Assembly (NCBI RefSeq): GCF_038049925.1
Contig: NZ_CP145809.1
Span: 1,736,001 to 1,800,000, forward strand
Direction: 5' to 3'
DNA length: 64,000 nucleotides
DNA from: Georgenia sp. M64
GTDB lineage: Bacteria; Actinomycetota; Actinomycetes; Actinomycetales; Actinomycetaceae
Made by a program: the position numbers and the translations under genes. Below, one piece after another: positions 56,332 to 58,848 of the stretch. The notes under the pieces are model-generated. The model was not told where the DNA came from, made no database searches, and saw nothing but the letters and a program-made list of their open reading frames with translations. Position 1 is the first letter of the stretch. Every line of letters begins with the position of its first letter.

Positions 56332-56808
56332 TTACGACGCCGGCTGGAGCTCGCCGTCGCTCTCCGCCGTGCGGTCCCAGTCACGGGGGGTGAGGTCGGG
56401 ACGACGGTTCTCGTAGTCGCTGCCCAGGAGCGGCGACGAGATGAGCATGTCCGCCGTCGCGACGTTGCACGCCATCGGGACGTTCCACACGGCCCCGATC
56501 CGCAGGAGCGCCTTGACGTCGGGGTCGTGCGGCTGCGCCTCCAGCGGGTCCCAGAAGAAGACCAGCATGGTGATGCTGCCCTCGGCGATCCTGGCGCCGA
56601 TCTGCTGGTCGCCGCCGACGGGGCCCGAGAGAAAGCGGTGGACGGGCAGGCCGAGCTCGAACTCGAGCATCGTCCCGGTCGTGCCGGTGGCGTAGAGCTG
56701 GTGCTGGGCGAGGGTGCCTCGGTTGTACTCCGCCCAGCGCAGCAGCTCCACCTTCATGTTGTCGTGGGCGACGAGGGCGATGTGTCGGGGCTTGATGTTC
56801 GGGCTCAT
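56332..56808 (-). CDS. mgsA: methylglyoxal synthase
   Basis: 158 residues that convert dihydroxyacetone phosphate to methylglyoxal and phosphate. The family fingerprint is clear: [72 protein letters not shown], and [11 protein letters not shown]. Active-site Asp residues of the Asp-x-Asp-x loop ([16 protein letters not shown]) are present. ATG behind CCGGAGGAGC. Lies downstream of the SDR gene on the same strand. Confidence 0.93.
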
Positions 56809-57109
56809 GGCGAGCTCCTCCGGTCGAGCAGTGGTGCAGGACCGCCGCCGCGCCGTTGCAAGCGCCGTGGCACCAACACTGGCGCATGCCGGGCGGACTG
56901 TCACGAGTCGTGGCGCTGTCGTGCCCGGCGAACCATCGTCGTCCGTCGCTGACCTGCGCAGACGCCGCCGGAGGTGACCGAGGGCACGTACGCCGGGGTG
57001 GGACGACGTCGTCGACGCCGACGTCCCGGTCGTGTACGTCACCCAGGGACCGCGAATGCCGGACCCCCGCACCCCGGTGGTATCGGGCCTGTCCGACATG
57101 TGAGAACCG

Positions 57110-57138
57110 TTGACACCATGCGGACCGTCCCGCAAACT
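57110..57138 (+). promoter_or_regulatory. promoter for the polycysteine leader
   Basis: TTGACA (57110-57115, perfect -35), 17-bp spacer, CAAACT (57133-57138). The leader ATG is seven bases on (57145), so transcript and translation should begin at nearly the same base. Confidence 0.7.
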
Positions 57139-57144
57139 CGACAC

Positions 57145-57234
57145 ATGTCCACGGCCCGGCCTCTGAACTCGCTCTCCGCGAGCTCCGTCGACGTCTCGTC
57201 GATGTGCCGTTGCCTGTGTCGAATGTGCCGCTGA
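57145..57234 (+). CDS. leaderless polycysteine leader peptide (putative attenuator)
   Basis: 29-residue short [23 protein letters not shown] then CRCLCRMCR and a stop. Four of the last nine codons are cysteine. The ATG lies six bases past the -10 box (leaderless). Polycysteine leaderless uORFs are known in mycobacteria and relatives, where ribosome stalling at Cys codons when cysteinyl-tRNA is scarce changes downstream RNA folding and raises operon expression. The next 170 bases contain several possible hairpins (CCCCTCAG/CTGAGGAG near 57246-57264; GGCATGACGCC near 57273) before the gene at 57404. Confidence 0.75.
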
Positions 57235-57403
57235 CCTCTCGCGTCCGGTCCCCTCAGCTCTGAGGAGCCCCAGGCATGACGCCTGGACCGCGTGGACCCT
57301 ACCGCTGCATCGCGGCGCACCCCGACACCGCAGGACCTGGCAGGAACCAGGGCGCCCGGCGTCGGCCCGGACCAGTGCATCACCGAACGCCGAAGGAATC
57401 GAC

Positions 57404-57667
57404 GTGTCGAACCCCAGCCGTACCGACGTCCTGCCCATCCAGGAAGTGGTCGCCAAGGCCTCCCCGAGCGCGTGGCTCGACGGCCTCGTCCTCTCCAGCC
57501 GTCCCGCTGAGCTCACCGTCGTCCTGCTGGACGGCGGCGTGCGGACGCTGACCACCGGGGCCGGCGCGCCCGTGGGCGAGCCCGTCGCCGTGCACCCCGT
57601 CGCCGAGCTCGTCGCGGTCGGCGGGGTGTGGTTCTCGGCGCGAGCCGAGGTGATCGTCGAGGCTTAG
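57404..57667 (+). CDS. 87-residue protein, likely under cysteine attenuation
   Basis: Small all-beta-looking protein: [60 protein letters not shown]. No domain is recognised, and it has no cysteine itself. GTG start behind GAAGGAATC. It is the first gene past the polycysteine leader, 169 bases downstream of the leader stop. Its stop overlaps the stop of the copper-storage-like gene on the opposite strand by four bases, so the two transcripts may collide. No further gene follows on this strand for 1.5 kb. Confidence 0.6.
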
Positions 57668-58068
57668 GCGCTCGTCATCGACGACATCATCGACGAGCAC
57701 GCCTCGACCATCGCACGGCACGCCATCGCGCAGATCCGGCAGTGCTCGGACATGGCGGCGTGCGTCTCGCACTCCGCCGCGCAGGCCTCGCCCATGCTCA
57801 TGCAGGCCGATGTCATCGCGGTCATGACGGTCATGTCGTAACCGGTCGGCCGCATCATCATGCGCATCATCGCCGTCGCGACGTCGGCGGTGTTGGTACA
57901 CATGGCGGCGCAGCGCCCCATGCCCTCGCCCGCATCGGCGTCGGCGCACATCGTCGCCGCCATCGCCGCCGCGGAGCACGCCTCGATGCACTGCTGCATC
58001 ATGGGCATCTCCATGCCGGCCTTCTCCGCCATCGGCATGGACTTCATCATGTCGGCCATCATGTTCAT
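57664..58068 (-). CDS. Csp-like four-helix copper-storage protein
   Basis: 134 residues, extremely rich in Met, Ala and Cys (12 Cys). Cys pairs line the helices: MQQCIEACSAAAMAATMC, GRCAAMCTNTADVA, TSACMSMGEACAAEC, EHCRICAMACRAMVEAC. This is the four-helix bundle of copper storage proteins (Csp; DUF326), which fill the bundle core with Cu(I). There is no signal peptide, so cytosolic Csp3-type. The N-terminus MNMMADMMKSMPMAEKAGME is Met-rich. A perfect 32-bp palindrome lies 18 bases upstream of the start. The gene is tail to tail with the putative cysteine-attenuated gene. Confidence 0.88.
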   Translation of the reverse strand: MNMMADMMKSMPMAEKAGMEMPMMQQCIEACSAAAMAATMCADADAGEGMGRCAAMCTNTADVATAMMRMMMRPTGYDMTVMTAMTSACMSMGEACAAECETHAAMSEHCRICAMACRAMVEACSSMMSSMTSA

Positions 58069-58085
58069 CGCAGCTCGCCCGCCCT

Positions 58086-58117
58086 CGTCGTCACGTGACC
58101 TCTGTCACGTGACGACG
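58086..58117. promoter_or_regulatory. perfect 32-bp palindrome upstream of the Csp-like gene
   Basis: CGTCGTCACGTGAC and GTCACGTGACGACG are perfect 14-bp arms about a CTCT centre. Each arm also contains the self-palindrome TCACGTGA. It lies 17 bases from the start codon, where the promoter or start site must be. It is not the G-tract palindrome typical of CsoR sites. Confidence 0.8.
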
Positions 58118-58164
58118 TTACGCCGGGCGTGATCCGCCACGCCAGAGGGCGGTTTGCCCGGAAC

Positions 58165-58848
58165 CTACGGTGTGAGCTCGACGTCCTCGCCGCGGAGCAG
58201 GGCCCGGAACCCGTCGTCCTGGACCGTGACGTCCCGGAGCACGAGACCCTCGGGCAGTCCTTCGAGCTCGTGCTCGATGGTGACGAGCTCGCGCACGAGC
58301 GCGGCGAGGGCACCGGAGAGGAAGGACGGGCCGCCGACGTCGATGGAGAGTGGCTCGACGACGAGGCGGCCGTCCTCGACCTCGACCGTCCCGGTGGCGA
58401 CGACGGGGAGCTCCCGGCCGAGGACCTCCACGGTCCGGACGACGCTCGCCTGGCCGCCGTCGGCCTCGCGCACGGTGGTCCCCTCGCCCAGCTCGGCCGC
58501 GACGACGTCGAACGGCACGGTCGCCTCGAGGGTGAGCCTCGCCGCGACGATCCGCTCGTCGCTCGTGACCACGTCCCGGCCGACGGCGGTCACGTCGAGG
58601 AACGTCGAGCCCGCGGCCGTGACGGCGCCGGCGTCGAGGGTGAGGTCGCTCAGCCACACCTCGTCCTCGCGGAGGTCGGCCGGTGGGCCGGTGGCCGGCG
58701 ACCCGGCGCCCGGCGCCGGCGGGGCGGGGTCCCGGTCGTCGCGGGCCGGCTCGGTCACCGCCCACCACGCGAGGACCAGACCGAGCGCCAGGACGAGGAG
58801 CATCGCCGTGGCGCCGATGAGCCAGTCCTTCACGCGTGCCCGGTCCAT
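58165..58848 (-). CDS. DUF2993 (LmeA-like) membrane-anchored protein
   Basis: 227 residues. N-terminal membrane anchor LIGATAMLLVLALGLVLAWW (about 11-30), Pro-rich linker, then a DUF2993 lipid-binding beta barrel: DVWLSDLTLDAG … TFLDVTAVGRDVVTS … FLSGALAALVRELV. DUF2993 proteins in actinobacteria handle mannan-lipid precursors (LmeA in mycobacteria). The start at 58848 is set by the anchor. Confidence 0.75.
   Translation of the reverse strand: MDRARVKDWLIGATAMLLVLALGLVLAWWAVTEPARDDRDPAPPAPGAGSPATGPPADLREDEVWLSDLTLDAGAVTAAGSTFLDVTAVGRDVVTSDERIVAARLTLEATVPFDVVAAELGEGTTVREADGGQASVVRTVEVLGRELPVVATGTVEVEDGRLVVEPLSIDVGGPSFLSGALAALVRELVTIEHELEGLPEGLVLRDVTVQDDGFRALLRGEDVELTP

Follow-up and report, generated by a model that had tools for sequence, protein, structure and literature searches.

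A conserved leaderless-type, cysteine-rich uORF upstream of a small protein gene paired with a Csp3-like copper-storage gene: a candidate cysteine-responsive leader in Georgenia and Cellulomonas

When considered from the point of view of their leader regions, the genes of bacterial cysteine metabolism offer several precedents for the locus described here. Cysteine-rich upstream open reading frames (uORFs) have been reported in front of cys genes in mycobacteria (PMC4633059, PMC1262725) and, as far as the available portions of these reports go, leader peptides carrying runs of Cys precede cys/cbs operons in Mycobacterium, Propionibacterium acnes and Bifidobacterium, with the authors of the 2005 study proposing Rho for the cys leaders (PMC1262725). 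A related group is formed by the polycysteine leaderless uORF attenuators of mycobacteria (Canestrari et al. 2020, Mol Microbiol 114:93, as presented in the accessible text of PMC9094748, PMC13236596 and PMC9031893). Finally, the DUF2946 protein CruR of Bordetella is described, in the accessible sections of its report, as sensing copper through a CXXC motif and as carrying a C-terminal RAPP arrest motif (PMC9426467).

The leader under consideration occupies positions 57110-57403 of the window, i.e. the whole 64,000-nucleotide stretch of Georgenia sp. M64 that was analysed, and precedes a gene for a small protein, termed p87 here. It shares with the Cys-run leaders, as these appear in the available text of PMC1262725, Cys codons near the stop codon and the lack of a terminator hairpin, but differs from them in having some conserved local hairpins, another target and interspersed Cys codons. 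With the mycobacterial attenuators, within the same limits of the sources, it has in common a leaderless-type uORF, Cys codons by the stop codon, an untranslated gap and a separately initiated downstream gene, whereas the Cys codons are here interspersed (CxCRMC), with only the CxxC universal, and the target is a small Csp3-linked protein rather than a known cysteine-metabolism operon. What it shares with CruR is a CxxC-containing peptide encoded ahead of a gene related to copper, although CruR, according to what is available of PMC9426467, is a long protein with the RAPP arrest motif, encoded in an operon with a TonB receptor. The best reading of 57110-57403, and in our judgement one with somewhat better than even chances, is that of a cis-regulatory leader that controls p87 by cysteine-responsive attenuation.

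An earlier, sequence-only reading of this DNA had described TTGACA, a 17-bp spacer and a -10 box ahead of the ATG of a 29-codon ORF ending in CRCLCRMCR, and these elements are present as described, with the reservation that the -10 box is weak. The putative promoter of the uORF transcript (57110-57138, forward strand) consists of the -35 box TTGACA (57110-57115), the spacer (57116-57132) and the -10-like hexamer CAAACT (57133-57138), which agrees with TATAAT at three of six positions; a consensus scan of 56800-58200 called no promoter. The uORF itself (57145-57234, forward strand) comprises 29 codons, four of them for Cys, and a TGA (57232-57234), and its ATG at 57145 stands 35 nt past the first base of TTGACA, which is where a leaderless mRNA would begin. 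This layout recurs in all 30 homologous loci at which the uORF could be read: TTGACA, starting 35-37 nt before the ATG, and ACTCG are found in 30/30, and an A at -11, a T at -7 and the CG that follows are common to every one of them. A second in-frame ATG, 27 nt upstream of 57145, is shared by the window with 15 further loci (16/30), but since it is missing in the other 14, the start common to all 30 is the one at 57145. Of ORFs that begin with ATG and have at least four Cys codons among their last ten codons, the window contains one and its dinucleotide shuffles (n=60) contain 0.08 on average; none of the 60 shuffles held an ORF of this type with TTGACA at the right distance. The conservation in 30/30 loci is stronger evidence for a real uORF than this shuffle control; it refutes the notion of a chance ORF, for which no supporting point was found and whose probability is next to nil. 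No tRNA gene was found in the window, nor any Rfam match at the gathering threshold. A methylglyoxal-synthase-like gene (PF02142; 56332-56808, reverse strand) lies upstream of the uORF transcript and is divergent from it.

Relatives of p87 were sought by protein search and by profile search, and were found in 7 of the 9 genomes of the window's genus, in 12 of 213 of its family, in 40 of the 396 making up the order sample and in 27 of 81 genomes of Cellulomonas, a genus assigned to a different family, 26 of these 27 being convincing and the 27th match (G614/L078; E=2.6e-4 over 28 columns, without a Csp match) being treated as false. Loci of the window's type number 31, namely four from the window's genus, 26 from Cellulomonas and that of C. 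aerilata (L008), with duplicate loci counted once (L007 is the same as L026, and L001-L004 together with L012 repeat L014-L017). The uORF was read in 30 of these, the remaining locus (L057, genome G617) having only 70 nt of upstream sequence before its contig ends. Throughout the 30, the order is TTGACA, ACTCG, ATG, a uORF of 24-32 codons, TGA, 98-193 nt and p87. Across loci, the ATG and the tail of the uORF stay in one frame despite differences of up to 8 codons in the length of the intervening stretch; the N-terminal part is variable, and one group has it shortened by seven or eight codons.

The tail, by contrast with this N-terminal part, is well conserved (57205-57234, forward strand). Its core, TGTCGAATGTG at 57217-57227, is kept in 28/30 loci, and both the Cys codon TGT and the rare Arg codon CGA are kept at the DNA level. 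As a peptide, it shows CR[MP]C in 30/30 and C-x-C-R-x-C in 26/30, CxxC alone being universal. The sequence-only reading had left the fate of the Cys codons in relatives to comparison, and with the CxxC pair kept in 30/30 the objection that they might lack conservation falls away. Its label of a polycysteine uORF is apt only in part: the ORF is of the leaderless type, looks cis-acting and has conserved Cys codons, but these are not contiguous, being interspersed in 28/30 uORFs, that of the window included, and forming a CCC only in L026 and L058, which end in CRMCCC. The uORFs of two species (L014, L015) have just two Cys. Codon usage in the tail is equally uneven, as the first Cys codon of the CxxC is TGT in 30/30, TGT makes up 74 of the 93 uORF Cys codons (versus 11 of 65 across 29 gene-like ORFs in the window), and at position -4 CGA encodes 26 of the 28 Arg residues, against a share of 5.6% among the Arg codons of those ORFs. 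Although shared ancestry inflates these codon counts, the RNA or the codon choice seems to be constrained in the tail besides the peptide.

Two alternative explanations have to be weighed at this point. According to the first, the uORF encodes a small Cys-rich protein acting in trans, e.g. as a metal carrier for Csp, the copper-storage protein encoded next to p87. Motifs such as CxC and CxxC typically serve as ligands of Cu(I) or Zn(II), and the locus is part of a copper-storage module; however, the N-terminal part of the peptide varies while the DNA of the tail is frozen, synonymous sites included, which fits cis action better, and a trans-acting product is accordingly rated as very improbable. 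According to the second, the rare TGT and CGA codons and the Arg-rich tail make the uORF a constitutive translational brake or arrest peptide, which would set p87 via termination or reinitiation without any sensing of cysteine. The conserved rare codons, with the above excess of CGA at position -4, agree with such a brake, and so does a compensatory change in a hairpin involving the GA of the uORF stop codon, one pair of which is C-G in 8, G-C in 6 and gapped in 3 of 17 sequences. Yet gaps interrupt the hairpin in three loci, L014, L015 and the window's own (L017), and it is Cys rather than other residues that is kept in 30/30 at two positions; we thus consider a constitutive brake unlikely.

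The distribution of the tail pattern shows how closely the leader is tied to its gene. With up to three mismatches allowed, 22 of the 81 Cellulomonas genomes have the pattern, each a single time, and 21 of these matches lie just upstream of p87; the 22nd (G617) lies on a separate short contig, in a genome whose p87 contig is truncated. The reversed pattern, used as a control, gave no match in the 81 genomes, and apart from the G617 contig fragment the tail pattern was not seen away from p87 in any of them. It misses four of the 26 p87-bearing Cellulomonas genomes (G268, G481, G602 and G635), where more than three bases differ and the uORFs were read directly. The leader is conserved, real and, within the genomes searched, specific to p87.

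The stretch between the uORF and p87 is a C-rich leader of 169 nt (57235-57403, forward strand) with predicted hairpins at 57252-57265 and 57270-57286. C exceeds G in 30/30 leaders (mean 45% versus 31%), a composition that is compatible with Rho-dependent polarity, yet is no evidence for it. Local helices, followed over 38 pairs in 17 of the 30 sequences, have 88.4% of cells paired (84.1% in shuffles), 24 cells changed on both sides (9.5 in shuffles) and a covariation score of 0.137 (0.096 in shuffles), counts that are biased and partly circular because the structure was taken from one of the 17 members. By the measure of further pair types the helices are no better than shuffles (287/500), and the consensus fold of 21 species (set B) has almost no energy (-2.3).

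The sequence-only reading had also pointed to a search for competing hairpins in 57235-57403; such hairpins, which would relay stalling to the ribosome-binding site, were not borne out. The pairing of the tail is no better than in shuffles, and no terminator was found. The candidate Shine-Dalgarno sequence of p87, GAAGGAA (57392-57398, forward strand), has purine-rich GGAG/GGAA counterparts near the same place in the alignment. Compared by duplex energy with dinucleotide shuffles, the pairing of the uORF tail with the region of the ribosome-binding site gave a mean z of -0.35, with 4/30 loci at p<=0.05; with the region from -40 to +15 the values were 0.0 and 2/30, and with the whole leader -0.31 and 3/30, whereas a control segment paired better than the tail (mean z -0.8, 7/30). 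Masking of the tail moved the predicted opening energy of the Shine-Dalgarno sequence in no consistent direction, with 12 of the 30 lower (easier) and 7 higher (harder). A switch based on pairing of the tail with the ribosome-binding site or with the leader, which looks attractive in single MFE folds and at some loci (L055, L061), was therefore rejected, the control segment having done better. The search for intrinsic terminators found no terminator-like site in 56800-58200.

The presumed target, p87 (57404-57667, forward strand, GTG start), encodes a protein of 87 residues which is predicted to be a small beta-barrel with one helix (AlphaFold2, mean pLDDT 89). Its earlier description as Cys-free and devoid of a known domain holds, given that it has no Pfam match at E<=1 and a single NCBIfam match far under the cut-off (11.9 of 615 bits). 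A Foldseek search of the PDB found no solved structure matching it at E<=0.001, and the best match of its profile among PDB sequences has E=0.5. The literature covered, from which subscription papers were mostly absent, yielded no paper on this uORF, on p87 or on the p87/Csp pairing. The absence of Cys from one protein of this size is unremarkable in these genomes (fewer than one is expected), the point being instead the contrast between two groups of homologs: p87 of the uORF type has no Cys in 30/30 and no internal Met in 27/30, whereas the homologs of the other type have at least one Cys in 34/34 counted (mean 2.9). As a weak argument, a Cys-free, Met-poor p87 suits a protein needed in a shortage of sulfur amino acids. 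The idea that the uORF is a detached N-terminal segment of p87, a part in which the non-uORF homologs have Cys, was rejected, since a uORF profile reached at most 3.1 bits with 30 real N-termini, as against 9.6 bits with 600 shuffled ones.

The biochemistry of the Csp3 copper-storage proteins is well studied. The gene that faces p87 (57664-58068, reverse strand) encodes a Met/Cys-rich, Csp3-like cytosolic copper-storage protein of 134 aa, of which 12 are Cys and 31 Met; it is convergent with p87, and the two stop codons overlap by 4 nt. The assignment rests on the profile of this partner's family, which matches solved Csp3 proteins (PDB 6q6b, 5arm; best 6q6b, E=2.1e-27). Scans with the window's Csp as a single protein are weak, with no Pfam match and TIGR04401 (Csp1) below its cut-off (19.7 of 100 bits), and DUF326 is above its cut-off only in the homolog L022. 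Convergence with csp is seen in 31/31 loci of the uORF type, with stop-to-stop gaps of -8 to +77 nt and overlapping stops in 13, and in 28/34 other p87 loci, the exceptions being L054 and five loci with a SAM-IV riboswitch. The partner differs from the known Csp3 proteins in belonging to a Met-rich subtype, which is found in the 81 Cellulomonas genomes only alongside p87: this subtype (E<=5.4e-49) occurs in exactly the 26 p87-bearing genomes, and a Csp3 with a weaker match (best E between 6.2e-27 and 6.6e-22) in 16 others, all of them without p87. The profile was derived from Csp proteins linked to p87, and part of the gap in E-values follows from this choice; the co-occurrence does not. To judge from these genomes, p87 and the Met-rich Csp look like one module.

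Some further features of the csp genes may be recorded here. In the 81 Cellulomonas genomes, the two kinds of Csp3 exclude each other, the Met-rich kind with p87 (26 genomes) and the weaker-matching kind without it (16 genomes). Upstream of the window's csp (58068-58135, reverse strand) there are tandem GTCACGTGAC palindromes which, among the csp loci compared, are present only in the window and in its nearest relative, G001. Inspection by eye also revealed a GGCGTA(A/G)CGTCG-like element upstream of csp in the loci of the uORF type, with looser forms elsewhere, that is possibly the -10 box of csp.

The sequence-only reading had proposed p87 as a new target of cysteine control; p87 is indeed not a known cysteine-biosynthesis enzyme, but its copper-storage partner had been missed, and this partner raises the main rival to cysteine attenuation. 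In this rival explanation the uORF acts as a copper or thiol-redox sensor, with Cu(I) or oxidation acting on the nascent CxxC, altering arrest or termination and hence p87. The conservation of CR[MP]C in 30/30, even where M is replaced by P and CGA by CGC (L028, L075), would suit such a sensor, as would the tie between its target and a Csp3-like copper-storage gene and the precedent of CruR in Bordetella, as far as the accessible report of it extends (PMC9426467). However, the CxxC ends one or two residues before the stop codon and should therefore still be in the ribosome exit tunnel, whereas CruR is long and, in the same part of that report, has its arrest motif at 139-142, and the 30 uORF peptides contain no RAPP motif. 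Moreover, conservation of the tail at the nucleotide level alone can account for most of the conservation of the CxxC, and SAM-IV control of p87 homologs points toward sulfur. Copper or redox sensing of this kind thus appears improbable, albeit as the foremost competitor of cysteine attenuation.

The links to sulfur come from two sides. In five genomes, three of them from the window's genus (G002, G003, G007) and two from its family (G016, G105), a SAM-IV riboswitch directly precedes a p87 homolog, which suggests that members of the p87 family are under sulfur-metabolite control elsewhere. At these loci (L018, L019, L021, L024 and L025, with L005 and L006 being the same loci as L018 and L019), the p87-family gene has an N-terminal Cys motif and ..GH, and the fetched stretch contains no csp. 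In Cellulomonas, a Cys-rich uORF was found in 9/9 of the fetched nitrite/sulfite-reductase-cysH regions (L079-L087), ending in CCCPR.. in 8 and in CCPAQS in 1, with TGT as the last Cys codon in 9/9; their starts lie about 205-265 nt ahead of the stretch that matched the reductase, and may be GTG or ATG. They are of the kind reported for mycobacterial cys genes (PMC4633059, PMC1262725). The gene beside cysH has PF01077 and PF03460 above the cut-off in L079 and NCBIfam equivalogs below their cut-offs, and its identity as a sulfite reductase is presumed from its neighbour. Uniting the reductase uORF with that of p87 are the genus and the position of the Cys codons shortly before the TGA, but in the former the Cys codons are contiguous and the target presumably serves sulfur assimilation, whereas in the latter they are interspersed. 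Such CC- or CCC-ending uORFs before Cellulomonas reductase genes indicate that Cys leaders occur in this group and, together with SAM-IV on homologous genes, make control by sulfur more likely for p87. Matches to PF01507 (APS/PAPS reductase) were found in none of the nine genomes of the window's genus (G000-G008), as against 14/14 in the control; assimilatory sulfate reduction thus seems to be missing there, and a dependence of the window's organism on reduced sulfur is probable. The proposal that p87 stands in for lost sulfate assimilation was rejected for want of a clear link in Cellulomonas, where a strong CysH match was found in 17/26 genomes with p87 and 36/45 without it, counted over 71 of the 81 genomes (ten were left out for low completeness or contamination, or as G614 and G616) and with weak partial matches (G416, G577, G626, G627) taken as lacking.

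In the cysteine attenuation favoured here, transcription would start at or beside the uORF ATG, and ribosomes would translate the uORF as a leaderless mRNA. A shortage of cysteinyl-tRNA would slow them at the Cys codons shortly ahead of the stop codon, and p87 would be expressed; with ample cysteine, the uORF would be completed fast and p87 would be kept low. Candidates for the relay from stalling to p87 are Rho-dependent polarity in the C-rich leader and refolding of the local hairpins. As p87 would act together with the adjacent Cys/Met-rich Csp3-like protein, the leader may couple cysteine supply to a copper-storage module. Several observations weaken this reading: the Cys codons are interspersed, and p87 is partnered by a copper protein instead of a sulfur enzyme; L014 and L015 have only two Cys, fewer than the reductase leaders; Arg and the exact codons TGT and CGA are kept as well, although a plain counter of Cys needs neither; and the locus combines a weak -10 box with the lack of a terminator, of pairing between the tail and the ribosome-binding site and of a clear link to CysH loss.

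A broader variant, to which we give a low but appreciable probability, regards the uORF as a co-translational thiol/copper sensor. Its frozen Cys-Arg-X-Cys tail would read either cysteine or the Cu(I)/thiol state and would switch p87 as the dedicated partner of the Met-rich Csp3-like store; and because p87 transcription runs antisense toward csp, with stop codons overlapping in 13/31 loci, an open leader could spare sulfur by lowering the Cys/Met-rich store.

If correct, these considerations would mean that sensing of cysteine (or of thiol/copper) by leaderless uORFs reaches beyond cysteine biosynthesis to copper storage. The locus offers Csp3 a candidate partner gene, in perfect co-occurrence with one subtype in one genus, together with a putative regulatory input. 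In addition, Cellulomonas provides a natural contrast between a contiguous CCC leader before the reductase and a CxCRMC leader before p87.
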